Source: Colwellia sp. BRX10-3 (lineage in GTDB: Bacteria; Pseudomonadota; Gammaproteobacteria; Enterobacterales; Alteromonadaceae). From it: a stretch of 64,000 nucleotides of DNA. Positions within the stretch are counted from its first letter, which is position 1, and each line of letters begins with the position of its first letter. Below the pieces are notes generated by a model. The model did not search any database and had not been told where the DNA came from. It saw only the letters and a list, made by a program, of their open reading frames with translations. Shown here one piece after another: positions 46,677 to 64,000 of this stretch. The stretch is taken from positions 62,001-126,000 of the forward strand of contig NZ_JACGWA010000003.1 in the NCBI RefSeq assembly GCF_014077505.1, written 5' to 3'. Position numbers and translations under genes: made by a program.

Positions 46677-46679
46677 ATA

Positions 46680-46973: not shown

Positions 46974-47005
46974 GTTAGCAAGTCAGTTTTGCATTAGTAC
47001 AATAT

Positions 47006-47033
47006 AAAAAAGGTTGCTTCGGCAGCCTTTTTT
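47006..47033 (+). terminator. rho-independent terminator of pheST-ihfA
   Basis: AAAGGTTGC and GCAGCCTTT pair around the stable TTCG loop, with A and T tracts on both sides. It could also serve the convergent DUF2937 gene. Confidence 0.9.
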
Positions 47034-47049
47034 AGTTCTACGCGATGAT

Positions 47050-47586
47050 TTACTTCGAATTATTTTCAATAACCTTATCTTGCTTTACTTTAATAAAAGG
47101 ACGTTTAACGGCAAAAACAGTTAATTCTTTCATTAACAATGCACTAATCGCTAATATTCCCCCTGTGGCAATCGCATTTAACTCAAGCGGAATAGCCATG
47201 GAAAAATGCTCTGCTGTACCCTGAGCAATTTGTTGATCTAAATGCCAAATAAATTGATAAACACGGTTTAGATAATCAGGTTGGGTAATTTGCTCTAAAT
47301 GACTTGCCAGATAATCAACACGCACTGACAAACGTTCAATCAACTCGCCTGTGCTGATAATAGACGCTTCAGTATTCTCTTTATAGCGTGTGATCATGGT
47401 CATCAAGCTGCCATCAAAATGTTGCTGAGCAATAATCTCAAATTGGTCTAATTGCGAGCTGGATTCAGCTAAGTGGCCGGCAAGACGTTGTTGATATTGC
47501 TGTATAAACTCAGGCAGCTGCACGCCTAATATAAAAGTAACCGTGAAAAAACAACGATCAATAACATTGTTAATTAAGGCAAACAT
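47050..47586 (-). CDS. DUF2937 family membrane protein
   Basis: This 178-aa protein has a hydrophobic stretch near the N-terminus (about 10-25, CFFTVTFILGVQLPEFI) and one near 135-152. Between them is an amphipathic region likely to form coiled coil (residues 28-120). The lead LPEFIQQYQQRLAGHLAES matches what I remember of DUF2937, found in marine gammaproteobacteria. Function is unknown. It is convergent with ihfA and divergent from the Atm1-type ABC exporter. Confidence 0.65.
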   Translation of the reverse strand: MFALINNVIDRCFFTVTFILGVQLPEFIQQYQQRLAGHLAESSSQLDQFEIIAQQHFDGSLMTMITRYKENTEASIISTGELIERLSVRVDYLASHLEQITQPDYLNRVYQFIWHLDQQIAQGTAEHFSMAIPLELNAIATGGILAISALLMKELTVFAVKRPFIKVKQDKVIENNSK

Positions 47587-47771
47587 AATTGCTAGTTACC
47601 GTGTTAATAGAAAAGCCTCACGTTAGCACAACTACTTGGAAAGTACATGGGCAAAAAAATGTTAATTCAAAAGTAAAGTTTTGTCAGATATTCGTATAGT
47701 ATCGATGTTAATATACTCAACATTAAAACAGTTAACCATAACTAAAATTTAAGTGGAAATTACCAGCTATT

Positions 47772-49559
47772 ATGCGCAGATCTTCCCATCAAAGCGAACA
47801 TGAAGTAACGACCTTTAATTGGCGTGTTGTTAAACTTTTAATGCCCTATCTGTTTGAATTTAAAACGCGAATTTTTTTAGCTTTAGCTTGCTTAGTGCTG
47901 ACAAAAATTGCGAGCGTTTATTTACCCTTTATTCTTAAAGACATTGTTGATGTTTTAGATAACCAACAAGAGAATAGAATTTACTTAGTACCATTTGCTT
48001 TAGTTGGCGCTTATGGTTTAGCAAGACTTACCATTGTTATATTTGCAGAAATTCGCGATACCTTATTTGGCCGTGTTACCGAACGCGCGATCCGCAGAAT
48101 TGGTTTAAAGGTTTTTCAGCACCTGCATAAATTGGATTTAGACTTTCATTTAAATCGCCAAACAGGTGGTTTATCGCGCGATATTGACCGTGGCACCTCA
48201 GGCATTAATTTTTTAATGCGCTTTATGATTTTTAATATTATTCCAACGCTGATAGAAATTATCATGGTAGTGGGTATTTTATTAGTAAATTACGGTATTT
48301 GGTTCGCGTTAATTACCTTATCTTCTATCGTGTTATATGTTGGTTACTCGGTTTATGCTACCGACTGGCGCACACGCTTTATACGCGAGGCCAATAAGGC
48401 TGATTCATCAAGTAATACCCGCGCTATCGATAGTTTACTCAATTATGAAACAGTAAAATACTTCACCAATGAAGATTTTGAGGCCAAAGCCTATGATAGC
48501 CAATTGGCTACTTGGGAGCAGGCCAAAATGAAGAACCGCTTATCTTTATTTGCTTTAAATGGCGGCCAGGCGCTTATTATTTCTTGTTCGATGACCGCAA
48601 TGTTGGCACTAGCCGCGTATGAAGTAACCTATGAAAATATGACATTAGGCGACTTTGTACTGATTAACGCCTTTATGATGCAACTTTTTATCCCGCTTAA
48701 TTTTTTAGGTTTTGTTTACCGTGAAATTAAAGGCTCACTTGCCAATATAGAACACATGTTTGAATTGATGTTAAGAAAGCCGACAATAGAAGACAGCGAA
48801 AATGCCGCTGTTTTGGCTTTATCTCAGGCAGAAATTAAATTTGAAGGTGTATCGTTCGCTTATAATGTAAAACGGCCCATTATTAAAAATATATCATTCA
48901 CTATTAAATCAGGGCACAAAATTGCTGTGGTTGGTGAAAGTGGCTCAGGTAAATCTACCTTAGTTAAGTTGTTGTTTAGGTTTTACGATTGTGACAGTGG
49001 GAAAATTACCATTGATGGGCAAAATATCCGTGAAGTAACACAGCATTCGCTAAGAAAAAACATTGGTATTGTGCCGCAAGATACTGTGCTATTTAACGAT
49101 ACACTTTTTGCTAATGTTAATTATGGCGAACCTGAAGCCAATGAAGAAAGAGTTAATAACGCCTTTAAGCTTGCTCATTTGTCTGATTTTGTTTCGAGAT
49201 TACCTGATGGTATGGAAACGGTCGTTGGCGAGCGAGGTTTAAAACTCTCTGGTGGAGAAAAACAACGGGTTGCTATTGCCCGCACTATTTTAAAGAATCC
49301 TCGTATATTAGTATTCGATGAAGCAACGTCTTCACTTGATAGCCAATCAGAACAAGCGATATTAAGCGCCATTAAAGAAGTAGCTGAACATAGAACCAGT
49401 TTAGTCATTGCTCATCGTTTATCGACCATAGTGGACGCCGATAATATTATTGTTATGCAACAAGGCGAAATTATTGAGCAGGGCACACACCAAGACCTAA
49501 TCGCTAAAAAAGGTCATTATTATAATATGTGGCAACTACAACAAAGTGCTAACAGCTAA
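47772..49559 (+). CDS. ABC transporter, Atm1/HMT1-type heavy-metal exporter family
   Basis: This 595-aa half-transporter has six membrane segments (about 35-320) and a C-terminal ATPase. Walker A is GESGSGKSTLVKLLFRFYD near residue 390, Q-loop GIVPQDTVLF near 430, signature LSGGEKQRVAIARTI near 492, Walker B ILVFDEATSSLDS near 514, and H-loop VIAHRLSTI. The membrane part has VTERAIRRIGLKVFQHLHKLDLDFH, split by the conserved LDLDFH turn, and TGGLSRDIDRGTSGI, typical of mitochondrial Atm1 and bacterial AtmA. Relatives export glutathione-metal or glutathione-persulfide species. It probably works as a homodimer. Confidence 0.92.
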   Translation: MRRSSHQSEHEVTTFNWRVVKLLMPYLFEFKTRIFLALACLVLTKIASVYLPFILKDIVDVLDNQQENRIYLVPFALVGAYGLARLTIVIFAEIRDTLFGRVTERAIRRIGLKVFQHLHKLDLDFHLNRQTGGLSRDIDRGTSGINFLMRFMIFNIIPTLIEIIMVVGILLVNYGIWFALITLSSIVLYVGYSVYATDWRTRFIREANKADSSSNTRAIDSLLNYETVKYFTNEDFEAKAYDSQLATWEQAKMKNRLSLFALNGGQALIISCSMTAMLALAAYEVTYENMTLGDFVLINAFMMQLFIPLNFLGFVYREIKGSLANIEHMFELMLRKPTIEDSENAAVLALSQAEIKFEGVSFAYNVKRPIIKNISFTIKSGHKIAVVGESGSGKSTLVKLLFRFYDCDSGKITIDGQNIREVTQHSLRKNIGIVPQDTVLFNDTLFANVNYGEPEANEERVNNAFKLAHLSDFVSRLPDGMETVVGERGLKLSGGEKQRVAIARTILKNPRILVFDEATSSLDSQSEQAILSAIKEVAEHRTSLVIAHRLSTIVDADNIIVMQQGEIIEQGTHQDLIAKKGHYYNMWQLQQSANS

Positions 49560-49661
49560 TGGATTTTCAGTTATAAAATTGTGAGAAGTAAAAGCCAGTA
49601 AGTGATTATCTATAATTGAAAGCCAGCAAGTGAATTAAGTAAAATATTGAGATAAGTTGTT

Positions 49662-50210
49662 ATGAGCGCAATACCTGAAATTGAACAAACCAAGCAATGG
49701 TTAGAGCAAGTGATTATAGGGTTAAACTTTTGCCCGTTCGCAAAAAAAGAGTTTGTTAATAACACTATTCATTATCATTCCAGTGATAAAGAACAGCTTA
49801 AATCAGCCTTAGTTGAACTTTTAGCGCAATGTCATTACTTACATGATAAGCCTGAAATCGAAACGAGTTTAGTTATTTATAATCAAGGTTTTCGAGACTT
49901 TAATCGTTTTTTAGATTTGGTTGATGATGCCAATCACCTTATCGTTGAATATGGCTTTGAGGGCATATTTCAACTGGCGACCTTTCATCCTGAATATTGT
50001 TTTGCAGATGCCAATTATGATGACGCTGGCAACTATACTAATCGCTCACCTTATCCCACTTTGCATTTAATTCGCGAACAAAGCATGGCTAAAGTGCTCA
50101 GTGTCTATAAAAACCCTGAAGCTATTCCTGATAATAATATCGCCTTAGCCGAGAAGAAAGGCGCGAATTATTTTCAAACCTTACTGAAAAATATTAAAAA
50201 CAACGCTTAG
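49662..50210 (+). CDS. DUF1415 family protein
   Basis: This 182-aa soluble protein begins with TKQWLEQVIIGLNFCPFAK, the hallmark of DUF1415, followed by FNRFLDLVDDAN and IFQLATFHPEYCFA. There is a single conserved cysteine in NFCPFA, and histidines in TFHPEY and TLHLIRE could take part in catalysis or metal binding. Function is unknown. It follows the ABC exporter gene on the same strand after about 100 bases. Confidence 0.88.
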   Translation: MSAIPEIEQTKQWLEQVIIGLNFCPFAKKEFVNNTIHYHSSDKEQLKSALVELLAQCHYLHDKPEIETSLVIYNQGFRDFNRFLDLVDDANHLIVEYGFEGIFQLATFHPEYCFADANYDDAGNYTNRSPYPTLHLIREQSMAKVLSVYKNPEAIPDNNIALAEKKGANYFQTLLKNIKNNA

Positions 50211-50332
50211 CCTTTTATAATATGAATAACTCTTTTAGCTTATTCACACACACCTACGAATTGCGATATACTGACGGCAATTAAGATAAAATAAGCGTTA
50301 ATTATACGTTTAATCATTAGGTAATATTTTTT

Positions 50333-51121
50333 GTGGAAAAACTTCCTGTTGTAAAAGTTGGTGGTAGTGTTGAAGAAGCCGTTAAAGGCGAGTATGAACT
50401 TGATGTAGCGGCTATATTGAAAGAAGCATGGCAAATTACCTTGAAGTCGCGCATGGCGATTAATTTAGGGTTATTAACCTGTTTGATCATTGGTATGTTG
50501 GTTTCAATGTTAGTTAGCAGCCAATTAGGTGGCATTGAAGTAGCAATTCAAGACCAACAATCAGCAACTCTACTCAATATTATTGTGACTTTAGTTGTCT
50601 ATCCATTTATTGTTGGTGTTGAAATGATGGGCGTTTTTCATTCTGTTGGCTTAAAAACTCAACCAAAATTGATTTTTGGCTTTTTAAAACGCGGCAGTTG
50701 GGTTGCGGTTAGTGCCTTACTAACGTCTACCTTAGTTACCATAGGTTTAACATTATTTTATTTACCCGGAATATTTTTAGCGGTAGCCTTGTCGCTAGTA
50801 TTGCCTTTGGTGGTAGAAAAGAAAATGTCACCTATAAAAGCAATTTGGGTCAGTATTCAAGCGACACGTTTTCAATGGTTTAAAATATTTTCAATTTATT
50901 TGATTCTAGCGTTGGCAGTTTTGGTTTCTGCTTTACCTGTTGCCGCTGCTGGTGCTTCAGAATTAGGCTTTATTGCGATCGCATTTTTCCTTTTCTGTTT
51001 GGCTTATTTAGCGCCATTGTTTTATAACGTTAAGGGGATTTTGTATCGAGAAATATTTGGTTTACAAATGCAAACATCTGCAGATCAAAGTAAAACAATA
51101 ACGGACACTTTTTCTGCTTAA
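50333..51121 (+). CDS. conserved inner-membrane protein of unknown function
   Basis: This 262-aa protein has a polar N-terminus of about 40 residues with VGGSVEEAVKGEYELDVAAILKEA, followed by five or six membrane segments. It resembles the multi-pass proteins with DUF975- or glycerophosphodiester-phosphodiesterase-membrane-like folds, but I cannot place it in a family with certainty. The start is GTG at 50333, with no good ATG nearby and a weak ribosome site. It precedes the glucosaminidase gene on the same strand. Confidence 0.7.
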   Translation: MEKLPVVKVGGSVEEAVKGEYELDVAAILKEAWQITLKSRMAINLGLLTCLIIGMLVSMLVSSQLGGIEVAIQDQQSATLLNIIVTLVVYPFIVGVEMMGVFHSVGLKTQPKLIFGFLKRGSWVAVSALLTSTLVTIGLTLFYLPGIFLAVALSLVLPLVVEKKMSPIKAIWVSIQATRFQWFKIFSIYLILALAVLVSALPVAAAGASELGFIAIAFFLFCLAYLAPLFYNVKGILYREIFGLQMQTSADQSKTITDTFSA

Positions 51122-51191
51122 TGGCTATTACTTTGTAAAGTTTGCTCAGTGAATAATACTAAAAATAATTGCATAAGGAGCTTTTGACTTG

Positions 51192-52043
51192 ATGAAATTT
51201 AATAAACAGTTTTTCTTAGGATTGATTTTTTTCACTTTGTTTGGTGTTGGTTTAATTGCACCATTTACTTTTTTACCTTTACCGGAAAGTACACAGACCG
51301 AACAAATTATTGAGCAGAAAACGACAAAATCGCCAAAAAAGGTGATTAAAAAAGTTGAACAACCACTGCATGATGTTAATTTACCTAACTTTGCCAAAAT
51401 TCGAGATGTAAAAGAGAAAAAACGAAAATTTTTCGCTTTTATTAAGCCTGCGGTAATGGCTGAAAATAAAAAGATACTTGCTAAGCGTGTTGAAGTAGAG
51501 CGTTTAATAGAACAGTTGACCTTAGAGCAACCTTTTAGCGTCGAAGATGAAGCGTTAGTAGCAAAGTTAATTACGCAATATAAAGTCAGTAAAAAATTCT
51601 CACTATTAAAGCAGCTCTATGAATTACAGCTTAAAGTAGACGTTATTCCGCAAGCGCTTGTATTAGTGCAGGCGGCAAATGAGTCAGCTTGGGGGACTTC
51701 TCGGTTCGCCCGAATAGGTTTAAATTTTTTCGGTGTTTGGTGTTATAGCGAGGGGTGTGGCATGGTGCCGAATAGTCGTAATTCAGGTGCAGCACATGAA
51801 GTCGCCGCATACAGTTCTGTAAAACAAGGCGTTGAGCGCTATTTACATAACATTAATACGCATCGGGCCTATAACGTATTTAGGCTTATTCGTGGCCAAT
51901 TAAGGGAACAAAACCAACATCTGGCACCAGAAATATTAGCTACAGGCTTAACAGCTTACTCTGAACGTGGTGCGGATTATGTTTTAGAACTCACTGAGAT
52001 GATCCGACATAATCGTCCATACTTTAATCTTACAAATAAATAG
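51192..52043 (+). CDS. Bax-like glucosaminidase-domain protein
   Basis: This protein of about 283 aa belongs to the Bax family (COG2992). Residues 7-26 are a single membrane anchor or uncleaved signal. Residues about 120-280 form a glucosaminidase/mannosyl-glycoprotein endo-beta-N-acetylglucosaminidase-like domain with QAANESAWGTSRFARIGLNFFG, split by the catalytic-type glutamate turn ANESAWG, and AYSSVKQGVERYLHNINTH. It likely cuts peptidoglycan or binds it in the periplasm. AAGGAG is 8 bases before a TTG at 51189 and 11 before the ATG, so either start is possible. Confidence 0.87.
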   Translation: MKFNKQFFLGLIFFTLFGVGLIAPFTFLPLPESTQTEQIIEQKTTKSPKKVIKKVEQPLHDVNLPNFAKIRDVKEKKRKFFAFIKPAVMAENKKILAKRVEVERLIEQLTLEQPFSVEDEALVAKLITQYKVSKKFSLLKQLYELQLKVDVIPQALVLVQAANESAWGTSRFARIGLNFFGVWCYSEGCGMVPNSRNSGAAHEVAAYSSVKQGVERYLHNINTHRAYNVFRLIRGQLREQNQHLAPEILATGLTAYSERGADYVLELTEMIRHNRPYFNLTNK

Positions 52044-52215
52044 ATCTTTAGTAGCTTTGCCGTTCCAAGTATAAAACTATACTGAACGGCAAAACTGTAA
52101 AATAATTTACTCTAAGATTAAAACTAAACCGTTAGCCAACATTAAACCAAGCAATACGCTGTGCTTCATAAGCTAACGTTAAATATGGCTTAATCATTGA
52201 AAAGTTTAGGTAATA

Positions 52216-53148
52216 TTATTTTATCTCTGTTACTTTCAATAAATTTTCTTGATGAATGTTAACAGGGTTATTTTCAGGTACTGCTTGAGCAAAGGTTTCT
52301 TGATCAAAAGCGGTATCGCCACCGTTGATAATCCCAGAGCTTGAATTGATACCTTTAAAGTCAAAGAGTTCGCTGTCACATAAATGTGAAGGCACAACGT
52401 TTTTGATCGCAGTAAACATAGATTCTATTCGCCCAGGATGGTTTTTATCCCAATCTTGTAGCATTGCCTTAATGTTTTGACGTTGTAAGTTAGGCTGTGA
52501 ACCACATAAGTTACAAGGGATAATAGGAAATTGCTTTAGCGCAGCATACTGAATTAGCTCTTGTTCTTTACAAAATGCTAATGGACGAATAACTACATGT
52601 TCGCCATTGTCAGACACAAGCTTTGCTGGCATTGATTTAAGCTTACCGCCGTAAAACATATTTAGCATTAAGGTTTCTAGCATGTCGTCGCGATGATGAC
52701 CCAGTGCAACTTTAGTGGCTCCTAACGCTTTCGCCGCTTTATACAGCAATGCTCGGCGTAAACGTGAACATAAGCTACAGGTTGTTTTCCCTTCAGGAAT
52801 TTTCTCTTTAACGATAGCGTAGGTGTCTTCTTCAACGATTTTATAAGCGACACCAATTGATTCAAGGTAATTTGGTAATATATGCTCAGGAAAACCCGGT
52901 TGCTTTTGGTCGAGGTTAACCGCAATTAAGTCAAAATGAATAGGTGCAGACTTTTTCAAAAGCATTAATATCTCAAGCATGGCATAGCTGTCTTTACCAC
53001 CTGACACACACACCATTATTTTATCGCCGTCTTCAATCATATTGTATTGGGCAATAGCTTGACCAACATGACGTCGTAAACGTTTTTCAAGCTTTTCTAA
53101 CTGCGTGTTTTGGCTTGGAGATAGGGCTGATTTTAAAACTGCGCTCAT
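52216..53148 (-). CDS. ttcA: tRNA 2-thiocytidine(32) synthetase
   Basis: This 310-aa enzyme thiolates cytidine 32 in a set of tRNAs using ATP and an Fe-S cluster. The PP-loop is [12 protein letters not shown] near residue 48. Cysteines in CSLC near 123 and in CNLCG near 213 are the expected cluster ligands. [20 protein letters not shown] is conserved in the family. E. coli TtcA is 311 aa. It is monocistronic, with a 685-base gap upstream. Confidence 0.96.
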
Positions 53149-53833
53149 AATAAATTCCTGATAAATATTGGCGCGTAGTATAGCCGAAGTAGCTTAATGA
53201 ACAAAGTTGAACTTGGACAATTTATTTATCTAATTTAACTTTATATTTTTAATACTTTTGAAGTGTAAGCTTATGATTAACTTATAGTACTTTTTAAAAT
53301 AAGGTAAAGGTGTTTTTTCAATGATATTTGGGCTAAAGCTAAATCCCAAAAGTAATGAAAATTTAAGCTATAAATCTTGCAAAATAATTCGAAAAACCGG
53401 TCCAGGTTTGAGGGTCTATCGCGAGTCGTATTCTTGACTGTATGATGAGTGTTGATGCGGGTATTTAGGCATTTCAAACGAGCGAAAACATATAGGCATG
53501 CATGTAATATTACTACTAACTAATGTGAGCGTTTAACCAACGTTAAATATGACTAATGTTTTGAATATGCTGAACTGGTAATTTGTAAAATTATACAACG
53601 ACTACAATTTTTATTTAACACTCAGGTTTTTGTTGTTGGCTGCCTTAACGAGTAGTAATACTAAGGTGTTTATAATTGGCTATTTACTGGGGTATGAATG
53701 AGCACTGAACGGTAGTTGTCGGCATTAGAATTAACAATCAATTTTTGTGTTTAGTTGACACTAACAGTATGAAAAGGTTAATGTCTTTCCTGATCGACGA
53801 GCAGAACTTAAGTGGTTAATAAAAGGAATTAAT
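53149..53833. other. 685-base intergenic region, no gene seen
   Basis: No frame here has a good start plus recognisable product. The region is AT-rich throughout. A possible promoter, TTGACA at 53755-53760 with TTAATG 17 bases later, lies about 50 bases before the lipoprotein gene. The left end should hold the ttcA promoter. Confidence 0.5.
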
Positions 53834-54307
53834 ATGAAACACATTGTAAGCATTATTTTTATCGCATTTTTGATTTCCTGTGGTGGTGATAATAATGGTG
53901 ACTTTAATTTGGATGAAGTTAAAGCAAGCATAGAAGCTAATCATACTAAATGGAAACTAAGTGCATTGTCAGACTATTCATATACGTATCAACGAAATTT
54001 AGGGGATTGCCCTACGGCAGATGAATTACCTGCGATGGATATAACAGTGGAAGATAATGAAGTTGTATCTGTATTCTATGCGGGTACAAGTGAAATACTT
54101 GATTTTGATAATGCCCCAACGATTGATACTATTTTTGGTGCGATGCTTGATTCATTAAGCGCAAAGCCAATAAAGTTTAGAAAATCAAAAAATGATAGCT
54201 CATTACCTAGCTTCGATGATTCTTTAGGCTATCCATCAATGTTCTATATAGATATATCCTCAAAAGATTGCGATGCTACATTGATCAGAGTAACTGACTT
54301 TTATTAA
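53834..54307 (+). CDS. DUF6174-like lipoprotein
   Basis: This 157-aa lipoprotein has a signal peptide ending in the lipobox LISC, followed by GGDNNGD. The mature part has WKLSALSDYSYTYQR, then TVEDNEVVSVFYAG and IDTIFGAMLDSLSAKP. These match the pattern I recall for DUF6174 (a central SYSYTY-like beta strand, and a helix with IDxxF). Two further cysteines (GDCPT and KDCDAT) could form a disulfide. AAAGGAAT precedes the ATG. Function is unknown. It lies 259 bases upstream of the hydrolase gene on the same strand, but no shared transcript is evident. Confidence 0.75.
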   Translation: MKHIVSIIFIAFLISCGGDNNGDFNLDEVKASIEANHTKWKLSALSDYSYTYQRNLGDCPTADELPAMDITVEDNEVVSVFYAGTSEILDFDNAPTIDTIFGAMLDSLSAKPIKFRKSKNDSSLPSFDDSLGYPSMFYIDISSKDCDATLIRVTDFY

Positions 54308-54566
54308 CGTTACTCTGGAGAATTGAATTCGACCGAATATTTTAAAGTTCAAGGGCTAATGCGCTTATAAAACCGACATTAAAATTGTGTGAAGGAGTGA
54401 TAATTTTTAGGGCAATATCAGCCAAGATTATCTGCTCGCTTGTGAGGCAGGTTTAAGCAACATTGCCGAGTGTGGAGTTCAAATTCAAGATGTTTATTTT
54501 TCGCTTGTATTAAGGAGTTAAATTGAACATTATAAGATATACTATATTTGACTAGTTTATCTAAAT

Positions 54567-55373
54567 ATGCCTTTCAATATCAATGTACGAGAGCGAAATA
54601 ACGTCAAAGTAACAGGCAATGGTGAAACAACACTTATGCTTGCCCATGGTTTTGGCTGTGACCAAAATATGTGGCGATTTATGCTTCCGTCGTTGGAGTC
54701 TAATTATAAAGTTGTACTATTTGATTATGTTGGATGCGGTCAATCAGATATCTCTGCGTTTGATAAAAAACGCTACCAAACTCTTGATGGCTATGTTCAA
54801 GATGTTATTGAAATTTGCGAAGAGTTAAAGCTTCAAAATATTGTATTTATCGGACATTCTGTTAGTAGCATGATTGGAATGCTCGCTGCTCTTCAGTCAC
54901 CAACTATTTTTTCCAAAATAGTGATGATTTGTCCTTCCCCTTGTTTTTTAAATTTACCACCGGATTATTTTGGTGGTTTTGAAAGGGATGACTTAGAAGA
55001 ACTGATCACTTTGATGGACAAAAACTATATCGGCTGGGCCAATTATCTAGCTCCTTTGGTTATGGGGCAAAGCAATAACACCGAATTAATTAAAGAGTTG
55101 GAAGAAAGTTTTTGTTCTACAGATCCTAATTATGCCAAACCTTTTGCCAAGGCTACGTTCTTTTCTGATGACAGAGCAGCTTTAACTAAACTGCACTTAC
55201 CAACCATGATATTGCAGAGTAGTGACGACAATTTAGCATCGGTTGAGGTAGGTGAATACATACATAAAAAAATACCTAATTCGGTTCTAAAAGTTATTGA
55301 TTCTCAAGGACATTGTTTACATATGACAGCGCCTGATTCTGTACTTCAAGCCATTGAGCAATTTTTAGGGTGA
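54567..55373 (+). CDS. RsbQ-like alpha/beta hydrolase
   Basis: This 268-aa cytosolic alpha/beta hydrolase resembles RsbQ of Bacillus subtilis, the hydrolase needed to activate the PAS-domain phosphatase RsbP under energy stress, and plant KAI2/D14 receptors. The start region LMLAHGFGCDQNMWR, the nucleophile in IGHSVSSM (S98), the acid in QSSDDN (D221 by RsbQ numbering plus 2) and the histidine in GHCLHM (H249) form the triad. CPSPCFLNLPPDYFGGFER and MDKNYIGWAN are close to RsbQ. Its TGA stop overlaps the GTG start of the PAS-GGDEF gene (GTGA), showing translational coupling. It probably makes or binds a small ligand for the PAS domain. Confidence 0.9.
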   Translation: MPFNINVRERNNVKVTGNGETTLMLAHGFGCDQNMWRFMLPSLESNYKVVLFDYVGCGQSDISAFDKKRYQTLDGYVQDVIEICEELKLQNIVFIGHSVSSMIGMLAALQSPTIFSKIVMICPSPCFLNLPPDYFGGFERDDLEELITLMDKNYIGWANYLAPLVMGQSNNTELIKELEESFCSTDPNYAKPFAKATFFSDDRAALTKLHLPTMILQSSDDNLASVEVGEYIHKKIPNSVLKVIDSQGHCLHMTAPDSVLQAIEQFLG

Positions 55374-56281
55374 TAACACCAACTCTGGACTCCTTTCCGT
55401 GTATTTTGATAATAACGGATATGCAGACCAATAAACTTGAATATTGCAATAAATACGCGTTGGATGTATTGGGTCTAGATTCAAATAAAACAACTGAATA
55501 TAGCTTGTTTGACATTATTTCTAAGGCTAGTTCTATATTCTTCGAAAGTTATATTCTACCTACCATTGTTAGCTCAGGATCATGCCAAGAAATACAAATA
55601 TCGTTAATGTTGAATCCCAACGAAAAAGTCGCCGCTGTTGCTAATGTTAAGCTAGTTGAGTCAAAAATATTCTGGTCTATATACTTAGCTGTTGCTCGTG
55701 ACAAACTATATCAAGAGCTTTTAGATGCAAGAGGAGATTTAGAAAACAAAACTGAAGAATTAACCTTGTTATCAAGAATTGACCCGTTAACAAGATTACT
55801 TAATCGTAGAGCTGCAATTGATGATTTCACCAAAATCTTTAATCTACTACATCGTAACTTTGTGCCCGTCTCATTGGCGCTAATTGACATAGATTGGTTT
55901 AAAAAAATTAATGATACCTACGGGCATGGCCGAGGTGATGAAATTTTAATCGAGCTTTCTTCTATCTTGAAAAAAGTGACTCGCACTAGTGATATTGTGG
56001 CACGTTGGGGAGGCGAAGAGTTTTTAGTGATCTTGTACAATTCAAACCTCGAAAATACTCGAATATTCAGTGAGCGACTGCATAGAGAAATTAATAGCAT
56101 TAAGCTTGCCGGAGATAACAAATTATCTATTAGTGTCGGGGTGACTGCTTTAAAAATCGATAATTTAACTTGTTCTAATGTCATTGAGAAATCTGTCAAG
56201 GAAGCTGACATAGCATTATATGAGGCGAAAGATAATGGTCGCAACAGAACTGAATTTTTTGACGATATAAACTCCAATTAG
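55370..56281 (+). CDS. PAS-GGDEF diguanylate cyclase
   Basis: This 303-aa protein has an N-terminal PAS domain (about 5-112, with ITDMQTNKLEYCNKYALDVLG and SSIFFESYILPTI), a short coiled coil (112-134), and a GGDEF domain (135-300). The active-site motif is GGEEF at 214-218, preceded by DIDWFKKINDTYGHGRGD. The inhibitory site RxxD is intact as RTSD (205-208), so c-di-GMP product feedback is likely. There is no membrane segment. The start is GTG, overlapping the hydrolase stop by four bases. The domain order suggests the PAS domain receives a signal from the hydrolase and switches c-di-GMP synthesis. Confidence 0.92.
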   Translation: MITPTLDSFPCILIITDMQTNKLEYCNKYALDVLGLDSNKTTEYSLFDIISKASSIFFESYILPTIVSSGSCQEIQISLMLNPNEKVAAVANVKLVESKIFWSIYLAVARDKLYQELLDARGDLENKTEELTLLSRIDPLTRLLNRRAAIDDFTKIFNLLHRNFVPVSLALIDIDWFKKINDTYGHGRGDEILIELSSILKKVTRTSDIVARWGGEEFLVILYNSNLENTRIFSERLHREINSIKLAGDNKLSISVGVTALKIDNLTCSNVIEKSVKEADIALYEAKDNGRNRTEFFDDINSN

Positions 56282-56646
56282 ATATAACCTACTGTACCCT
56301 CTAATAAAATTATAAATGGTCGATTGAACTCACATGGCGCAGGAGCCATTCACAGCAACTTTCAATCTGCTATGCTTCCTGCAAGATCATAGCTAACATT
56401 GGTATTTCGTATACCACCGCTAGCTTTCAGGCATAGAATTTGGTGTTATATGCTTTTTCAGCCGACTTACTTAAATGACATAGTTGACCTACCTCTTTGA
56501 CAAGCTTAATGTCAGCATAGAGCTGTTTTTTTTTATCGTTCGTGATAAATAAATATAAATAGGGTCAGATTCAAAAGCACTATGACCGAAGGTCATTGCC
56601 AATTGCGCCATTTATAATGAATACTATCGTATATATGGGGGGAGAT
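56282..56646. other. intergenic region upstream of the decayed gene
   Basis: No intact gene is visible. A short hairpin (TGGTAT, TTCGT, ATACCA) lies near 56400, and AATAGGGTCAGAT at 56558-56570 is repeated in inverted form near 57459. The gap ends in a strong ribosome site (GGGGGGAG) before the ATG of the pseudogene. Confidence 0.5.
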
Positions 56647-57302
56647 ATGATTTAAAGCAGTGTAACAAAGCATGCTAAAGAGCAAAACTGGTTTGCGGTT
56701 TTTGTGGATTTTCTTATTGTCGTGGTGGGTGTGTTTATTGGTATTTAGGTAGCAAATTGGAACGAATCTCAGCATTAAACGACAAAGAAGCAAAGCTACT
56801 GATTGAGCTAAAACGTGAAATTAAAATGGGTATTGATGCCACTACATCGAAGGGTGATGCCTCACAATGGCAGGATATCAGAATAAGTCGCTCAATATAT
56901 GATGAAATGCGCAAACTTGGCTTACCGCACAGCCGAACAATTATTGACAGTTTTGAACTCGTTCTTGCACAGAATGAAGGGAACGCTGTAATTTTTGATG
57001 ACAAACCTGTTTACCGTAACCGAATCAGACAATTGATACCATTCGCAGTCCAAAAGTTTTATTGGAATAATTGTTATACTTATACAGGTGGTGTTGAAAC
57101 TTATTTACAAAACTGTCCAGAGGGAATAACTAAAGAACTTGCTTCTTAAGTACTTAAAACTATTCTTAGCTAACCAGATATTAAACGTCATTTGACAGCT
57201 TGGGTAAGCGATTTAGTGACAGTCCCATCTAATTTTGATGATCAAAACACGGAAGCCTTAAAAACTATTGCTCTTATTGATGCCGAATTGCAACATCATT
57301 GA
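56647..57302 (+). pseudogene. decayed DUF6090-like membrane protein gene
   Basis: Starting at ATG 56647, behind a strong ribosome site, the frame reads M-I-stop, then SSVTKHAKEQNWFAVFVDFL and IVVVGVFIGI-stop-VANWNES. It then shifts frame to continue as ALNDKEAKLLIELKREIKMG. The rest runs to stop codons at 57147 and about 57180, with PDIKRHLTAWVSDLVTVPS after them, ending near 57302. The one-helix lead KHAKEQNWFAVFVDFLIVVVGVF, split here, is typical of DUF6090-like proteins. At least four stops and one frameshift make it nonfunctional. The 130-codon fragment at 56757-57149 is the longest open piece. Confidence 0.82.
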
Positions 57303-57544
57303 TTTGAAATATAAACAGACATCCATCTTTATTGCTGAACTTCAAAAATTTCTGAGGGTAGAAATTGGCACTTTGAAATCATTTAAATTCAACATCATGA
57401 CTTCAAAGTACTAAAATACCTATCGGCAATTAAATATCACTAGCTGAAATCAATTGCTCTGACCCCTTTTATTGTCTTATGTTGGCTGTCTGGTCAAAGT
57501 TGCCAACAGAAACTTTGTTTTTGTCATCCTTTAATATTTTATGA

Positions 57545-58426
57545 CTAGTCAGCAGGCGAGACTTTGTCCGTCGAAGGTGAAGTGTTTATCTGATTAAGTA
57601 ATAAAGCGGCCAAAATAATCCCACCGCCAATGCTTAACCTCATTATATCGGCCTCTGTGTTCCATATCAGTACGTTAACAACAATACCTGCTGGAATGAG
57701 TAAATTATTCATTGCTGCTAACGCACCTACATTGACTAAAGTCGCGCCTTTATTCCACCCAAAATAGCCTAAGCCAGAAGCAACGACGCCTAAGTAGATG
57801 AGCACTCCCCATTGAGTTGGTGTACTTGGTAACTTATCTGTATTGCCAAATAAAACATAACACACAGTAGCGACTATTAATGCGCCAATAAAAAACCAGC
57901 CAAATACAGTTTTATGATCCAGCTTACTGTTGGTCATTAAGTGTTTGTAAGTAACTTGCCCTGTAGCAAAGCACATATTGGCGGCTTGCACTAATAACAA
58001 GCCCATCAAAAAGTTACTATTAATACTTTCATAGCGAATAGCTAACGCACCACACACGGCAATAATGGCTATAACAAAAAAACGAGGGTTAAAATGCTTT
58101 TCCAGCGCATCGTTTAGTAGGGTGATATAAATGGGGGTCATTACCGTAAATAATAATACTTCGGGCACAGATAAATATAAAAAGGAGTGATAGTAAAAAC
58201 TATACATGGCGCCAAGTTGAATCGCGCCTATGAGCATGAGTTTTATAGCTAAGGGCTTTGGTGTTTTTTTAAACTTTAAAAACGGTAAAAAAACTAAAGT
58301 CGCCAGCGCAATGCGCATCAAAACGCTAAACCACGCATCAACTTGGCCTGCTAAATAAACCCCAATTAAACTAAATGAAAATGCCCAAAGCAGGGTCACT
58401 GCAAATAAATAGCCCATAAATATCAT
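57545..58426 (-). CDS. DMT/EamA family transporter
   Basis: This 293-aa membrane protein has ten hydrophobic segments in two EamA repeats (5-135 and 150-285). It includes FSLIGVYLAGQVDAWFSVLMR, split by the conserved loop, and LGYFGWNKGATLVNVGALAAMNNLLIP with its conserved NKG turn. E. coli YedA and related carboxylate/thiamine pyrophosphate-related (CTP) transporters have a similar layout. It is probably a metabolite exporter, with substrate unknown. It is a single gene on the reverse strand. Confidence 0.87.
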   Translation of the reverse strand: MIFMGYLFAVTLLWAFSFSLIGVYLAGQVDAWFSVLMRIALATLVFLPFLKFKKTPKPLAIKLMLIGAIQLGAMYSFYYHSFLYLSVPEVLLFTVMTPIYITLLNDALEKHFNPRFFVIAIIAVCGALAIRYESINSNFLMGLLLVQAANMCFATGQVTYKHLMTNSKLDHKTVFGWFFIGALIVATVCYVLFGNTDKLPSTPTQWGVLIYLGVVASGLGYFGWNKGATLVNVGALAAMNNLLIPAGIVVNVLIWNTEADIMRLSIGGGIILAALLLNQINTSPSTDKVSPAD

Positions 58427-58895
58427 CGTTAATTAATTAATGGCGACAGTCTATCTCTTATAAGAAATAAAATCTCTCCAATGGGCTTTTATAAGAATGA
58501 CTTTATCGGCAAATTAATTCGTCACTACCTATGCATTAAAAATTTAGTACGACATCCATGTTATTACTTAACGTTCGAATAAGTCTACTCAATCGGAGTG
58601 TATTATTAGTGAGGGGCAGCGTAAGTAACGCCTCAATTTAATCTGTAAATGAGCATTTAAAACAGACATTTTGGCCTTGGTTTTTAGTGGTAATATTTTT
58701 AATTAGTGTCCATATTTATGGGATAAGATCACATTTTAGCTGCCATTAGATAAATAGAGGTTAAAGCTAGCTTTGGTATCTAAGTGATATATTAGCTTGG
58801 TGATTTGAACAACAAAAAACGACAGTTTTATGGTCGTAGTGATTGTACTAGGTGCTGTATACCAAACATCAGGAACCGACATAAAGAACATAAAG
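58427..58895. other. intergenic region, no gene seen
   Basis: This gap between the DMT gene and uspE contains no ORF with a credible start. It should include the promoter of the DMT gene on the reverse strand. Confidence 0.5.
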
Positions 58896-58931
58896 CGTCA
58901 CCAGAATGTTAAGCTTTCTCATTTGGTGACG
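58896..58931 (-). terminator. hairpin downstream of uspE, possible terminator
   Basis: CGTCACCA and TGGTGACG form a perfect eight-pair stem around a 20-base loop just beyond the uspE stop. On the reverse strand it is followed by CTTTATG, a weak T tract. Confidence 0.5.
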
Positions 58932-58963
58932 TACTTTTGTTTACTTATTAAGCTCCCTGCACT

Positions 58964-59896
58964 TTATTCAACATCGAGCGGTGAAACGTAACCATCGGGC
59001 TTTAATGCTAATACATCACAATTGAGTCTATCAATAACATGCTCTGCGGTGTTGCCAATCAGTGCTGCGGATAATCCTGTGCGACCAACAGTACCAAGAA
59101 TAACTAATTCCGCATCTAATTCAGCAGCAATGCTTTGAATAATATCTTCAGGTAAACCCTCTTTAATATGAGTGCACTCCTCAGTAATATTAAAGGCAGT
59201 TGCATGTTCTAACATCGCTTTTTTATGATGCTTTAACATAGCGTTATTGTAATCGCTGGCATTAAACTCTGGTATTTCTATCGCTATATTTACCGGTGTT
59301 CCAGGGAATGAATTGACTAGGTGGAGATTTGCTTTCATTACTTTGGCTAGCTGTTTAGCTTCGGCGGTAATTTTATCATTAAGCGCTTTGTGTTCTTCTT
59401 CTTCACTGCCAATATTTAACGCCGCAATAATATTGCCATTTTCAGGCCATAAATGTTCTTTCACCAGTAAAACAGGACAAGGACATTTACGAAGAATATG
59501 CCAATCGGTAGGGGTAAATATTACTGATTTAAATTTGTCATGCTGATGAGTACCTTTTATGACAATGTCATAACCGTGTTCAAGTACTTGAGCAATAATT
59601 TGTTCAAAGGGACGGTTATGCCAAATAACCTTACAATCGATAGATATGTTAGTTATATCAAGTTCAGCGAGTATTGATTCTAGCCACTGTTTACGATCAT
59701 TAATAACAGATTGGCACATAGCTTCGCGCTCGTCGCTTGATAGCATGGTGGTCATTTCATAAGAAAAATCATATATGGTCAAAAATGCCGTAATGCTAGC
59801 GCCAGTTTTACGTGCTAATTCTAATGCGCGCTTTAACGCTTTTTGATCTTCTGTTGTTGGGTCAATAACAGCGAGTATTTTTTGATACTTTTCCAT
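58964..59896 (-). CDS. uspE: universal stress protein UspE
   Basis: This 310-aa tandem Usp protein has a first domain at about 4-150 starting KILAVIDPTTEDQKAL, and a second at about 165-305 ending in ELVILGTVGRTGLSAALIGNTAEHVID, with the ATP-binding-type glycine loop GTVGRTG. The ATG at 59896 follows AAAGGAATTAGCT. A TTG six codons upstream would put the ribosome site inside the gene. E. coli UspE is 316 aa and lies next to fnr, as here. Its transcription may be under FNR because an FNR-type box lies 63 bases before the start. Confidence 0.93.
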   Translation of the reverse strand: MEKYQKILAVIDPTTEDQKALKRALELARKTGASITAFLTIYDFSYEMTTMLSSDEREAMCQSVINDRKQWLESILAELDITNISIDCKVIWHNRPFEQIIAQVLEHGYDIVIKGTHQHDKFKSVIFTPTDWHILRKCPCPVLLVKEHLWPENGNIIAALNIGSEEEEHKALNDKITAEAKQLAKVMKANLHLVNSFPGTPVNIAIEIPEFNASDYNNAMLKHHKKAMLEHATAFNITEECTHIKEGLPEDIIQSIAAELDAELVILGTVGRTGLSAALIGNTAEHVIDRLNCDVLALKPDGYVSPLDVE

Positions 59897-59958
59897 AGCT
59901 AATTCCTTTATCAATTGTCTGTTATGTATAACAATAGCCTACTTTGAAGCAATAATAA

Positions 59959-59972
59959 TTGTTTTAAATCAA
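59959..59972 (-). promoter_or_regulatory. FNR-binding site upstream of uspE
   Basis: TTGTTTTAAATCAA matches the FNR consensus TTGAT-N4-ATCAA at nine of ten fixed bases. It lies in the fnr-uspE gap, 63 bases from the uspE ATG, and the fnr gene is adjacent. Confidence 0.65.
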
Positions 59973-60067
59973 ATTATTATCACTTTAAACATAAAGTCAT
60001 TCAATACTAAGCATAGCGTGAAATAGTCGAAGAAGGAAGTTTAGAAAAACAGGTAAAAAGAGTTGGG

Positions 60068-60787
60068 TTAAAGTGCTGCGCACTGGTTTAATTTTTCGAT
60101 ATTTAGAATAGTAATTAATTTACCATCAACTTCAATTAAACCATTTTTATGAAAGCGATTAAGCAAGCGGCTTATTGTTTCAACGGTTAAACCAATATAG
60201 TTACCAATATCACTTCGGGTCATCGATAAACGAAATTCAGAGGCGGATAAGCCGCGAGCGTGATAACGAATACTTAAGGTACTGATAAATGTTGCTAGGC
60301 GTTGCTCTGCATTTTTACGGTTAAGTAGTGTTAGCATTTCATGATCTTCACGAATTTCAGTGCTCATCATACGCAAAATTTGTTTTTTTAATTTTGGCAT
60401 GCTGTTTGATAAATTATCGAGCGTATTATAAGGGATCTCACACACCATCGAGGTTTCTAGCGCTTTGGCAAAGCTTGGGTGTTCAGCATTAGCGATAGCA
60501 TCAAAGCCAAGTAAATCACCTGCTAAATGAAAACCGGTAATTTGTTCTTCGCCTTGTTTATTAATGGTATAGGTTTTAAACGTGCCTGAGCGGATGGCGT
60601 AAAGTGCCTGCATTGGCTGACCATCGTTAAATATTTGCTCACCTTTTTGAATAGGGAGCTTACGATCGATAATATTATCTAAGGTTTCTAGCTCTTTGTC
60701 ATTAAGAGAAAATGGTAAGCATAACTCACTAATACTGCAGTTTTGACAGTGAATAAGTTGCTGATCTGCGCGCGATTTATTACTCAT
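60068..60787 (-). CDS. fnr: FNR-type oxygen-sensing transcription regulator
   Basis: This 239-aa CRP/FNR family regulator has the [4Fe-4S] cysteines C14, C17 and C23 in [11 protein letters not shown], and C116 in SMVCEIPY. They match the spacing of C20, C23, C29 and C122 of E. coli. The sensory beta-barrel covers about 30-140. The C-terminal helix-turn-helix contains [20 protein letters not shown] with the FNR recognition residues E, S and R. Shewanella EtrA is the nearest known role. It sits between the cbb3-oxidase assembly genes and uspE. Confidence 0.96.
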
Positions 60788-60831
60788 AATAACCTTTAGA
60801 ACGTTGAATGATATTCACCATATTAGATACT

Positions 60832-61494
60832 TTATTTAAATGCAATCAGTATAGTATAAATGCCGTATGAAATTATTAAAAGGGCAGCCAGCTTTCTAAA
60901 GAGGGCATGGCTTAATAATGATTTAATACTTATAGTGCCTAATGATACTGAAAGTAAGGCAGGTAAGGTGCCAAGACCAAAGAAAAACATGATTAAAGCA
61001 CCATTAAATACATCGGCACTCGCCAACGCCCAAGTGAGCGTAGAATAGACTAAACCACAAGGTAGCCAGCCCCATAATGCCCCTAACGCGAAAGCACTTC
61101 GTATGTTTTTAATAGGAATAAATTTTTTAGTGTGTGGTGAAATATGACGCCAAATATTTTTGCCTAAATGCTCGACGCGGCTTAACCACATTAACCATTG
61201 ACCTAGATGCAAACCTAATAAGATAAGAAAAATACCCGCGATAGTTTTTAATATAGCTACGGGAAAGCCAATGTTTTTTGCGGCCATTGAACTGGTTAAT
61301 GCGACTAGCGCGCCAATGACACTATATGAGGCAATACGGCCGAAATTATAAGCAAATATAATGGCGTATTTTTTATGACGTGAAGTATCGGATATCGCGG
61401 TGGTTAACATGGTACTGATACCGCCACACATAACTACACAATGGCCTGAGCCTAATAACCCTATAACAAAAGCGGAAAAAAAATCAAGATTCAT
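60832..61494 (-). CDS. SafE/TauE-like membrane protein, cbb3 cluster
   Basis: This 220-aa protein has six membrane segments. The first carries GSGHCVVMCGG near residue 17, whose cysteines and histidine are typical of the cco-linked branch of the TauE/SafE family. Members next to ccoS are thought to help copper or sulfur handling for cbb3 oxidase, but this is unproven. It lies 4 bases after ccoS and 44 before fnr on the same strand, so a shared ccoI-ccoS-safE transcript is likely. Confidence 0.87.
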   Translation of the reverse strand: MNLDFFSAFVIGLLGSGHCVVMCGGISTMLTTAISDTSRHKKYAIIFAYNFGRIASYSVIGALVALTSSMAAKNIGFPVAILKTIAGIFLILLGLHLGQWLMWLSRVEHLGKNIWRHISPHTKKFIPIKNIRSAFALGALWGWLPCGLVYSTLTWALASADVFNGALIMFFFGLGTLPALLSVSLGTISIKSLLSHALFRKLAALLIISYGIYTILIAFK

Positions 61495-61498
61495 GAGG

Positions 61499-61774
61499 TT
61501 ATTTTTCTACCTGTTTACTTACTTGAATTTTTGGCTCATTGCTAGGGTTTACTTGGCTTTTGTCTATCTGATTTTCGTTTGGCTGACTTTCTTTTAGCGC
61601 AGCGTTGTTGACTTTATTATGATCGTTTATGTCATTTTCATCATCAAATAAAATGCTCATACCTTGCTTTTCTAAGTCATCAAATTGCTCAGTTTTTACC
61701 GCCCAAAAAAATAGATAAATACCGATAGTGGTAAGTAAAATGGCAATGGGAATTAATACGTAAATTATACTCAT
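61499..61774 (-). CDS. ccoS: cbb3-type cytochrome oxidase assembly protein CcoS
   Basis: This 91-aa protein has a single N-terminal membrane segment (MSIIYVLIPIAILLTTIGIY and on) followed by the family phrase FFWAVKTEQFDDLEKQG. CcoS is needed for heme and copper insertion into cbb3 oxidase. The C-terminal 40 residues are polar and Asn-rich, longer than usual. The start overlaps the ccoI end by four bases, showing translational coupling. Confidence 0.94.
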   Translation of the reverse strand: MSIIYVLIPIAILLTTIGIYLFFWAVKTEQFDDLEKQGMSILFDDENDINDHNKVNNAALKESQPNENQIDKSQVNPSNEPKIQVSKQVEK

Positions 61775-64000
61775 TTTTTCAAAAGCCTTAATGAATTGCT
61801 CACCACTAAAATTGAACTTGCCGACATACCAATTACCGCCATATAAGGTGCAATATGCCCAGTAACCGCTAGTGGTAATACAATCGCATTATAACCGAAA
61901 GCCCAAAGATAATTTTGCTTTATAATTCGCGCGGTACTTAACGATACCTGCCGCAATGTTTGCACGCCTTTAAGCTTGTTGTTAAGTAGTATCACATCAG
62001 CACCGTTTTTAGCAATATCGGTACCACTGCTCATAGCAATCGATAAATGTGCTGCGCCCATAACAGGACTGTCGTTTACACCATCGCCTATCATAGCGAC
62101 AGTGTGTGTATTTTGTTGCAGTTTTATAGCATTAACTTTGTCTTGAGCAGATAAATTAGCTTGTACATTATTGAGCTCCAATGAGGCTTGTAACTTATTA
62201 CAGCCTTGCAGGTGATCGCCAGATAGCATAGTGGTTTTAATGTCGTGAAGATGTAGAAACTCAATCAATGCTTTAGCATCATCGCGCAAGCTATCATGTA
62301 GATAAAATTCAGCAACTAAGTCTTCACCTTGCATCAATACACATTGCGCACTATCGGCAATGTTATCGTTATTGCTCAGTAACCATGAGCTTTTACCAAT
62401 GCGATAATGTTGGTTGTTAACTTCGCCAGAAATACCAGCACCAGGGGCAACCACAACTTGAGTTGTAGTTTGGCTAAAATCACGAAATGGGGTAAATGCC
62501 TTTGCCAAGGGGTGAGCCGAATGCGCTTCTAATGCCGCTGCAATGGCTAAAACTTGTTGTTGTCCTTCTGGCGCATTTTCCTTGGCAAAAACACCATAAG
62601 TTTTTACCTCAGCAATGGTAAATTCACCGGTAGTTAAGGTGCCTGTTTTATCAAATGCCACGGCATCAATTTCAGGCATAGTTTCCAGCACGTGTGCTGA
62701 TTTAATCAAAATGCCTTCGCGATTAAGGCGGGTAGTTGCACAAGTTAATGCGGTTGGTGTTGCTAATGACAAAGCGCATGGGCAAGTAACCACCAAAACA
62801 GATAAGGTGATCCAAAATGCTTCTGTTGGTTCATGCTGTACCCAATATATTGCCGTAACGGTGGCAACAAAGAGAATAAGCGCAACAAAATATTGGGCAA
62901 TTTTATCTGACAACTTCGCCAATTTAGGCTTATGACTTTGGGCGTTTTCACTTAAGCGAATTAATTGGCTTAAAAATGACTCTTGGTTATTGTGTTTAAC
63001 TTTTGCGGTTAAGTTACCATCGCCATTTATTGTGCCAGCGTAGATGTTATCAAGCGTTGTTTTATTCAGCGGCAGTTGCTCACCAGAAAGCATAGCTTCA
63101 TTGATTTGACTACTACCAGTAACTATTTCGCTATCAGCAGGCACTGTTTCGCCCGGCTTTATTAAAATAATGTCGTCAGTTTTTAAATGAGCTGCCGAGA
63201 TAAAACGTTCAATGCCTTGTTCAATTTTAGTGGCGGTCATCGGCATTAATTTTAATAAGTTTGCCGAAACGTCAGCCGCGCGACTGCGGGCTCTAAACTC
63301 AAGAAATTTGCCGATAAGTAACAGAAAGGTGAACATGGAAACAGACTCGAAATACACTTCACCTTTTTGGCTAAATGTTGCCCAAGTACTAGCAAGAAAG
63401 GCGAGGCTAATAGCAATAGAAACTGGTACATCCATTGAAAGTTGTCGAGCTTTTAGAGCAAAAAAAGCGCTTTTATAAAAAGGATAAGCGCCATAGGTAA
63501 CAATAGGAATGGTTAAAAATAAGCTTGCCCAGCGTAAATACACGACATTGTGCTCAGCCATATCTGCAAAAGCACCAAAGTACAAACCAAAGGCGATCAT
63601 CATCACTTGCATCATTAAAATGCCAGAAATACCTAAGCGCCTAATAAAATCTTTTGCTTGTCTTTTGTTTATTTTCTCAGCCGTACTGGCTTTAAATGGT
63701 AGGCCGTGATAACCAATTTTATCGATTAAACTGAGTATTTCGCTAAGTTTTACTTGGCTCTCTTGCCATTGCACGGTTGCTCTTTGTGTAGTGGCGTTAA
63801 CATTAATTTTATTAATGCCATCGAGCTTACTCACTTGCATTTCTATTAACCAAGCACATGCTGAGCAACTTATGCCCTCAATGGTTAATATAGTTTCTTT
63901 AAAACCGTCATGATAATAGGCAAACTCATTTTGTAGGCTTTCATCATCAAGAATTTCATTGCGCTGCAATTGTTCAGGTACTAATACTTCGCCTTTTTGT
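61771..64000 (-). CDS. ccoI: heavy-metal P-type ATPase CcoI (5' end beyond window)
   Basis: This copper-translocating P1B-type ATPase exports copper to the periplasm for cbb3 oxidase assembly. The frame continues open past 64000 (QKGEVLVPEQLQ), so the start and probably an N-terminal cysteine-rich domain are missing. A TTG at 63969 is not a credible start. Visible are a heavy-metal domain with GISCSACAWL near the start, the membrane metal site TCPCALSLATPTAL, phosphorylation motif FDKTGTLTTG, HP motif in SAHPLAKAF, and GDGVNDSPV. It overlaps ccoS by four bases. Confidence 0.94.
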   Translation of the reverse strand, partial: QKGEVLVPEQLQRNEILDDESLQNEFAYYHDGFKETILTIEGISCSACAWLIEMQVSKLDGINKINVNATTQRATVQWQESQVKLSEILSLIDKIGYHGLPFKASTAEKINKRQAKDFIRRLGISGILMMQVMMIAFGLYFGAFADMAEHNVVYLRWASLFLTIPIVTYGAYPFYKSAFFALKARQLSMDVPVSIAISLAFLASTWATFSQKGEVYFESVSMFTFLLLIGKFLEFRARSRAADVSANLLKLMPMTATKIEQGIERFISAAHLKTDDIILIKPGETVPADSEIVTGSSQINEAMLSGEQLPLNKTTLDNIYAGTINGDGNLTAKVKHNNQESFLSQLIRLSENAQSHKPKLAKLSDKIAQYFVALILFVATVTAIYWVQHEPTEAFWITLSVLVVTCPCALSLATPTALTCATTRLNREGILIKSAHVLETMPEIDAVAFDKTGTLTTGEFTIAEVKTYGVFAKENAPEGQQQVLAIAAALEAHSAHPLAKAFTPFRDFSQTTTQVVVAPGAGISGEVNNQHYRIGKSSWLLSNNDNIADSAQCVLMQGEDLVAEFYLHDSLRDDAKALIEFLHLHDIKTTMLSGDHLQGCNKLQASLELNNVQANLSAQDKVNAIKLQQNTHTVAMIGDGVNDSPVMGAAHLSIAMSSGTDIAKNGADVILLNNKLKGVQTLRQVSLSTARIIKQNYLWAFGYNAIVLPLAVTGHIAPYMAVIGMSASSILVVSNSLRLLKK

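Follow-up and report, generated by a model that had tools for sequence, protein, structure and literature searches.

An RsbQ-type hydrolase gene overlapping a PAS-GGDEF cyclase gene in Colwellia sp. BRX10-3, a likely example of the published RsbQ-PAS sensing module

The window, meaning the whole stretch of 64,000 nucleotides analysed here, comes from Colwellia sp. BRX10-3 (assembly GCF_014077505.1, contig NZ_JACGWA010000003.1, positions 62,001-126,000 of the forward strand). It carries a gene for an RsbQ-type alpha/beta hydrolase whose 3′ end overlaps a gene for a PAS-GGDEF protein, and the overlap and both intact frames were confirmed (Table 1). A preliminary description of this DNA had reported the GTGA overlap, an RsbQ-like hydrolase with an intact Ser98-Asp221-His249 triad and a PAS-GGDEF protein with intact GGEEF and RxxD motifs; all of these hold, including the residue numbering of the triad.

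Table 1. Positions of the gene pair, its motifs and the surrounding features in the window.
Feature	Position	Strand	Basis
RsbQ-type alpha/beta hydrolase gene	54567..55373	+	Open reading frame (ORF), 268 amino acids (aa), ATG start; phmmer and Pfam matches
Catalytic Ser98 (GHS motif)	54858..54860	+	S in 101/101 aligned rows, window included
Catalytic Asp221	55227..55229	+	D in 101/101 aligned rows, window included
Catalytic His249	55311..55313	+	H in 100/101 aligned rows, window included
Four-base GTGA overlap, hydrolase stop/cyclase start	55370..55373	+	Sequence
PAS-helix-GGDEF protein gene	55370..56281	+	ORF, 303 aa, GTG start
RsbP-type PAS domain, residues ~6-110 of 303	55385..55699	+	Alignment, profile match
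F-alpha helix signature F57...Y61..P64 (= RsbP F55, Y59, P62)	55538..55561	+	PAS alignment
Helical linker between PAS and GGDEF (predicted signalling helix)	55697..55774	+	29-residue continuous helix in model of relative L073
GGDEF diguanylate cyclase domain, residues 137-293	55778..56248	+	PF00990, E=1.7e-39
RxxD inhibitory site (RTSD), residue 205	55982..55993	+	RxxD in 71/75 GG[DE]EF partners
GGEEF active-site motif, residue 214	56009..56023	+	Among 75 partners: GGEEF 74, GGDEF 1
73 bp 5′ of the pair (candidate promoter/leader)	54494..54566	+	DNA similarity, conserved in L028 and L029
Accessory stretch of 5.8 kb between ttcA and uspE, carrying the pair	53149..58963	.	Congener comparison; NCBIfam gene names
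DUF6174 protein in the 5.8-kb stretch, upstream of the pair; N-terminus resembles a lipoprotein by eye	53834-54307		Pfam
130-aa ORF, TTG start, in the 5.8-kb stretch	56757-57149		No Pfam match
EamA-family transporter in the 5.8-kb stretch	57545-58426		65-68% relatives elsewhere in 3/5 congeners

The hydrolase matches Pfam family PF00561 (E=6.5e-25). Its closest solved relatives (phmmer) are Olei00960 of Oleispira antarctica (3qvm, 359 bits) and Bacillus subtilis RsbQ (1wom, 323 bits), ahead of the plant KAI2/HTL/D14 proteins (at most 220 bits). Placing it nearer to KAI2/D14 than to RsbQ was therefore rejected, on pairwise scores rather than a tree with plant sequences; the plant KAI2, D14 and DLK2 hydrolases share the fold and are related in sequence, at a greater distance than RsbQ. 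Olei00960 is also the top structural match of the model made for relative L073. Unlike the window pair, it is listed as a single hydrolase, and a full-text literature search with its PDB code returned unrelated papers only. RsbQ is single-copy in the genome, where the six further hydrolase matches score at most 46 bits.

The PAS domain of the partner is only weakly matched by Pfam (PAS_8, E=0.007, below the cut-off), and is matched at E=6.6e-46 by a profile built from 21 RsbP-type PAS rows. Because the window is itself one of those rows, the alignment with 97 partner PAS domains is the stronger evidence. RsbP numbering was mapped through an RsbP-type protein of Ureibacillus (L097) rather than B. 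subtilis RsbP itself; L097 agrees with B. subtilis RsbP at C10, L13, L48, Q53, F55, Y59, P62, E72 and P86. At C10, L13, L48, Q53, F55, C56, Y59, E72 and P86 the window has C, I, I, S, F, F, Y, E and A, which is identical or of the same class at seven of the nine positions of the published signature, the classes being our reading of a figure legend of PMC3183031. Across all 98 PAS domains (window included, with some species counted twice) E72 never varies and P62 occurs in 97; 80 have Phe at F55, 86 have Tyr or His at Y59 and 84 have Pro at P86. A DIT motif (pattern D[IV]T, last part of the row) occurs in none. A PDB sequence search with the window PAS gave no match; with the family profile it gave no solved RsbP PAS, just weak PAS matches, the best being PAS kinase 1ll8 (2.8e-5). 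With the GG[DE]EF active site and the RxxD inhibitory site both intact, the protein has the features of a diguanylate cyclase and is predicted to be active.

An arrangement of this type is already in print. Nadezhdin, Brody and Price (2011, PMC3183031) described RsbQ and the PAS domain of RsbP as a two-part sensing module and list 45 adjacent RsbQ/RsbP-PAS pairs, whose output is a PPM phosphatase, a histidine kinase or a diguanylate cyclase. In Psychromonas ingrahamii each of the two pairs carries a cyclase domain. A wholly new module was accordingly rejected as a description of the window pair. In B. subtilis the RsbP PAS domain is necessary and sufficient for RsbQ binding, F55A and Y59A lower that binding, and F55 is needed for contact (PMC3183031). 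As the published definition of the module asks, the RsbQ homologue of the window lies directly upstream of the PAS gene on the same strand. The definition also includes a coiled coil of at least 21 residues before the output; here the L073 model shows a 29-residue helix, a modelled helix rather than a computed coiled coil. The window pair shares with the published cyclase-output pairs (e.g. P. ingrahamii A1SVT3) the upstream RsbQ, the N-terminal PAS, the GGDEF domain, a predicted helical linker, the F-alpha signature and the lack of a DIT motif. No essential difference was found relative to the available description, the window having Ala at P86, Ser at Q53 and its pair within an accessory insertion. 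Compared with RsbQ-RsbP of B. subtilis, the triad-bearing hydrolase, PAS type and gene order are shared, whereas the output is a GGDEF cyclase in place of the PPM phosphatase that serves sigma-B. No study testing an RsbQ-cyclase pair was found in the open-licence full-text literature, as judged by titles, the starts of abstracts and term counts.

We gathered RsbQ-like places from this genome (1), from overlapping samples of its order, phylum, family and class, and from a species-level collection comprising the best 80 of 139 relatives. RsbQ was found in 19/394 genomes of the order sample, 20/398 of the phylum, 28/147 of the family and 3/369 of the class. The genome, order, phylum, family and species-level samples gave 142 places, which together with L179 and L180 make 144; leaving out L081, which lies at a contig edge, 143 were testable (some species twice). 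An RsbP-type PAS gene was downstream of the hydrolase in 137 of these, upstream in 2, fused to it in one frame in 1 and absent in 3; downstream here means that the two frames share a strand and are separated by less than 400 bp. With 140/143 adjacent or fused, the pairing, which the preliminary description had proposed to look for in other genomes, is conserved. A four-base overlap with a possible start codon recurs in 32 of 136 downstream pairs. The reverse also holds. When the 147 family genomes were searched with the PAS profile (A5, 21 rows, all from RsbQ-linked genes; at most 30 candidates scored per genome), 29 places in 27 genomes were found (E up to 1e-10) and 29/29 were beside RsbQ. 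In the 28th family genome (G751) a more divergent PAS adjoins its RsbQ (L146). The family profile search shows, as far as profile matches can reveal it, that the RsbP-type PAS occurs alone rarely, rather than never. In the class sample (369 genomes), where at most 12 candidates per genome were scored, the PAS was detected in two genomes and RsbQ in three.

Two rarer arrangements were encountered. Locus L026 (586-2340, minus strand) encodes RsbQ, PAS and GGDEF in a single frame of 585 aa, with a linker of ~14 residues and no stop; GTG and TTG codons at the junction make a second, internal start possible. Its source, G090, is a genome of this family in one contig, and the separate two-gene form (L018) is present there as well. 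Such a fusion was not seen in the available text of PMC3183031, which describes separate genes. At L066 (3220-5804) and L076 (3098-5792) the order is inverted, a PAS-GGDEF-EAL gene lying upstream of, and overlapping, the RsbQ frame.

Could the two genes simply be unrelated members of one operon, the hydrolase being a general esterase? A GGDEF gene next door would be no rarity by itself in a genome with 55 GGDEF matches, and three RsbQ-like genes have no PAS neighbour. Against this, 140/143 places are paired with the RsbP-type PAS, none of the six other alpha/beta hydrolases of the genome has one nearby (~1.5 kb each side), the PAS stays constant while outputs vary, and a natural fusion exists. 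Chance adjacency was rejected on the 140/143 paired places, the 29/29 PAS places beside RsbQ and the 0/6 control hydrolases; we regard it as having a negligible chance of being correct, and as far as genomics can refute such a reading it is already refuted.

The outputs themselves differ. Among 139 partners there were 94 diguanylate cyclases, 4 cyclase-EAL proteins, 37 histidine kinases, 1 PPM phosphatase and 3 left unclassified (L021, which shows PAS domains only, L122 and L124). Classes were assigned by similarity to exemplars, mostly checked with Pfam; the exemplar from L100 was classed as a kinase on similarity alone, Pfam seeing just PAS. A cyclase domain, in 98/139 partners (~70%), is therefore the commonest output and the phosphatase (1/139) the rarest, in a sample biased towards relatives of the gammaproteobacterial query and from which no ancestral state is claimed. 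The earlier proposal that cyclic-di-GMP (c-di-GMP) replaces dephosphorylation as the output is true in form, though not new given PMC3183031, and to say that the pair 'swaps' the output of a known module may mislead in view of these counts. On trees of the hydrolase and of the PAS (FastTree, parsimony, 136 labelled rows) the output class switches at least 10 times each, and therefore the input appears to have been kept while outputs were exchanged. Removal of redundancy at 95% left 119 of the 139 paired places. In these, conservation across all output classes is 95% or higher at 47 hydrolase positions, which suggests a common ligand or contact, and five further positions clearly differ between cyclase pairs (79) and kinase/phosphatase pairs (37).

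Taken together, it is likely that the pair belongs to the published RsbQ-PAS type of sensing module, with the hydrolase controlling c-di-GMP synthesis through contact with the PAS domain. Bearing on this are the intact frames, the near-obligate pairing, the conserved active site and F-alpha signature, and the fusion. That the two genes form a sensor, as first proposed, is strongly supported by the conserved adjacency, the two-way co-occurrence in 147 genomes, the fusion and B. subtilis genetics (PMC3183031). The RsbQ-type hydrolase would bind, and probably slowly hydrolyse, a small molecule in its Ser-Asp-His pocket and would dock on its partner's N-terminal PAS at the F-alpha face. The altered PAS dimer would then turn the helical linker holding two GGDEF domains, and their rearrangement would switch c-di-GMP synthesis on (or off). 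We infer that a contact of the B. subtilis type works in the window pair and that the output is c-di-GMP; any direction of control is inferred too.

Several observations weigh against module membership and hydrolase control. Unlinked PAS copies could have been missed by a profile made from RsbQ-linked rows and by scoring at most 30 candidates per genome. L110, L125 and L179 are RsbQ-like and lack a PAS within their 3.8-kb loci (~1.5 kb each side), where a PAS further off is possible. The window PAS deviates at P86 (Ala; Pro in 84/98) and at Q53 (Ser; Arg/Lys in 60/98). AlphaFold yielded a predicted template modelling score of 0.56 for the full read-through chain and 0.80 for hydrolase and PAS alone, with no confident arrangement of the one against the other. 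Coevolution between hydrolase and PAS, measured by mutual information with shuffles within class (119/139 pairs), peaked at 0.436, and the highest values of 20 shuffles lay at 0.28-0.34; because several of the top hydrolase columns (122, 251 and 254) differ by output class, we do not read the high-scoring pairs as contacts. Moreover, with 55 GGDEF matches in the genome, the global effect of one cyclase may be little. As a separate observation, genome G525 carries a paired copy, L108, alongside L125.

How the hydrolase would act is a matter of two published models (PMC3183031); the earlier suggestion, in which a small molecule is made by the hydrolase or presented by it to the PAS, is a version of one of them. 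In model 2 of that paper the hydrolase is a receptor: occupancy of its pocket alone would alter the PAS contact, with catalysis just a timer, and the PAS pocket may be empty. We give this close to an even chance. The fold of the L073 model is nearest to RsbQ and then to KAI2/D14/DLK2, and the F-alpha positions are conserved across output classes, both in its favour; the present data fit model 1 equally, and the full triad in nearly all 101 rows fits true catalysis as well. The plant proteins KAI2 and D14 have F-box and SMXL partners, and occupancy of their pocket changes partner contact, which is comparable to the receptor model. In model 1 the hydrolase is an enzyme which hands its product to the PAS pocket, the PAS being the sensor. 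This we rate as almost as likely as model 2: the triad is intact in 100/101 rows and is required in B. subtilis, where triad mutants are null (PMC3183031), but no PAS ligand is known and the direct-contact data of the same paper fit model 2 too.

The pair is real and well conserved, and its module type was described in 2011 (PMC3183031). The present analysis adds counts for the pairing in both directions, a fusion in a single frame, the inverted arrangement with a cyclase-EAL protein, and evidence for an insertion and a cassette. Within one family RsbQ and the PAS occur together almost without exception in both directions, which is a strong genomic reason to regard them as one receptor. The available texts give the ligand of RsbQ (PMC3183031) and the endogenous ligand of plant KAI2 (PMC10504578) as unknown. 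Since a cyclase output is easily read with c-di-GMP reporters, and the fusion L026 removes the step of complex formation, RsbQ-cyclase pairs are practical for a ligand search and for choosing between the two models.

The pair lies in an accessory stretch whose neighbours are TtcA, UspE and Fnr (NCBIfam). All five congeners compared have ttcA, uspE and fnr side by side, the gap from ttcA to uspE being 113-139 bp, against 5.8 kb in the window. Inside the stretch are the DUF6174 protein, the hydrolase-cyclase pair, the 130-aa ORF and the EamA-family transporter. No integrase was among the ORFs of at least 130 aa with a known family (DUF6174, the pair, EamA), smaller ORFs not being searched, and the ends share only one 11-base AT-rich word. 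Promoter-like patterns in 53100-56800 were no commoner than in shuffles (15 found, 14.8 expected).

A pair 91% identical lies elsewhere in one congener: in G773 the pair (hydrolase 93%) is on a different contig from its ttcA (87% identical). Of the other congeners, two have hydrolase versions at 61-63% and two have none. DNA similarity spans 54494-56315 for L028 (91%) and 54494-56289 for L029 (84%). The flanks compared were ~5 kb and 4 kb for L028 and shorter for L029, and blastn found no other match to either within 45001-64000; a distant GGDEF likeness in the L028 flank is seen at the protein level. Similarity limited to the two genes is what would be expected of a cassette, and since it is confined to 54494-~56315, the two genes and the 73 bp upstream appear to move together, probably as a 1.8-kb cassette. 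The pair apparently spreads between species, the hydrolase having relatives in Marinomonas sargassi (81%) and Glaciecola sp. KUL10 (84%). L029 itself is a 5-kb contig labelled Francisellaceae (hydrolase 85%, DNA 84% identical), either a recent transfer or a mis-binned contig. We consider it unlikely that the pair is a horizontally spreading receptor for a diffusible lactone-like or ester signal among marine bacteria, a counterpart of KAI2/D14 carried on the 1.8-kb cassette and writing into c-di-GMP. Quite improbable, in our estimate, is a recently acquired and poorly integrated cassette which works elsewhere and has no present role in this host: the stretch is absent between ttcA and uspE in 5/5 congeners and presence is patchy in the order (19/394 genomes), but neither frame is broken, the catalytic motifs are preserved and the 73-bp upstream stretch has been kept in L028 and L029.

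RsbQ-like genes were also found on 73 plasmid records, all at less than 60% identity, of which 39 are typed as conjugative or mobilizable. Two plasmid loci were inspected, one with a cyclase neighbour and one with a SpoIIE phosphatase neighbour, and both are a few kb from transposase genes. At L186 (NZ_CP034812.1, 119096-125866) a hydrolase and diguanylate cyclase pair belongs to a mobilizable plasmid of Paracoccus, with an IS66 element ~1 kb away.
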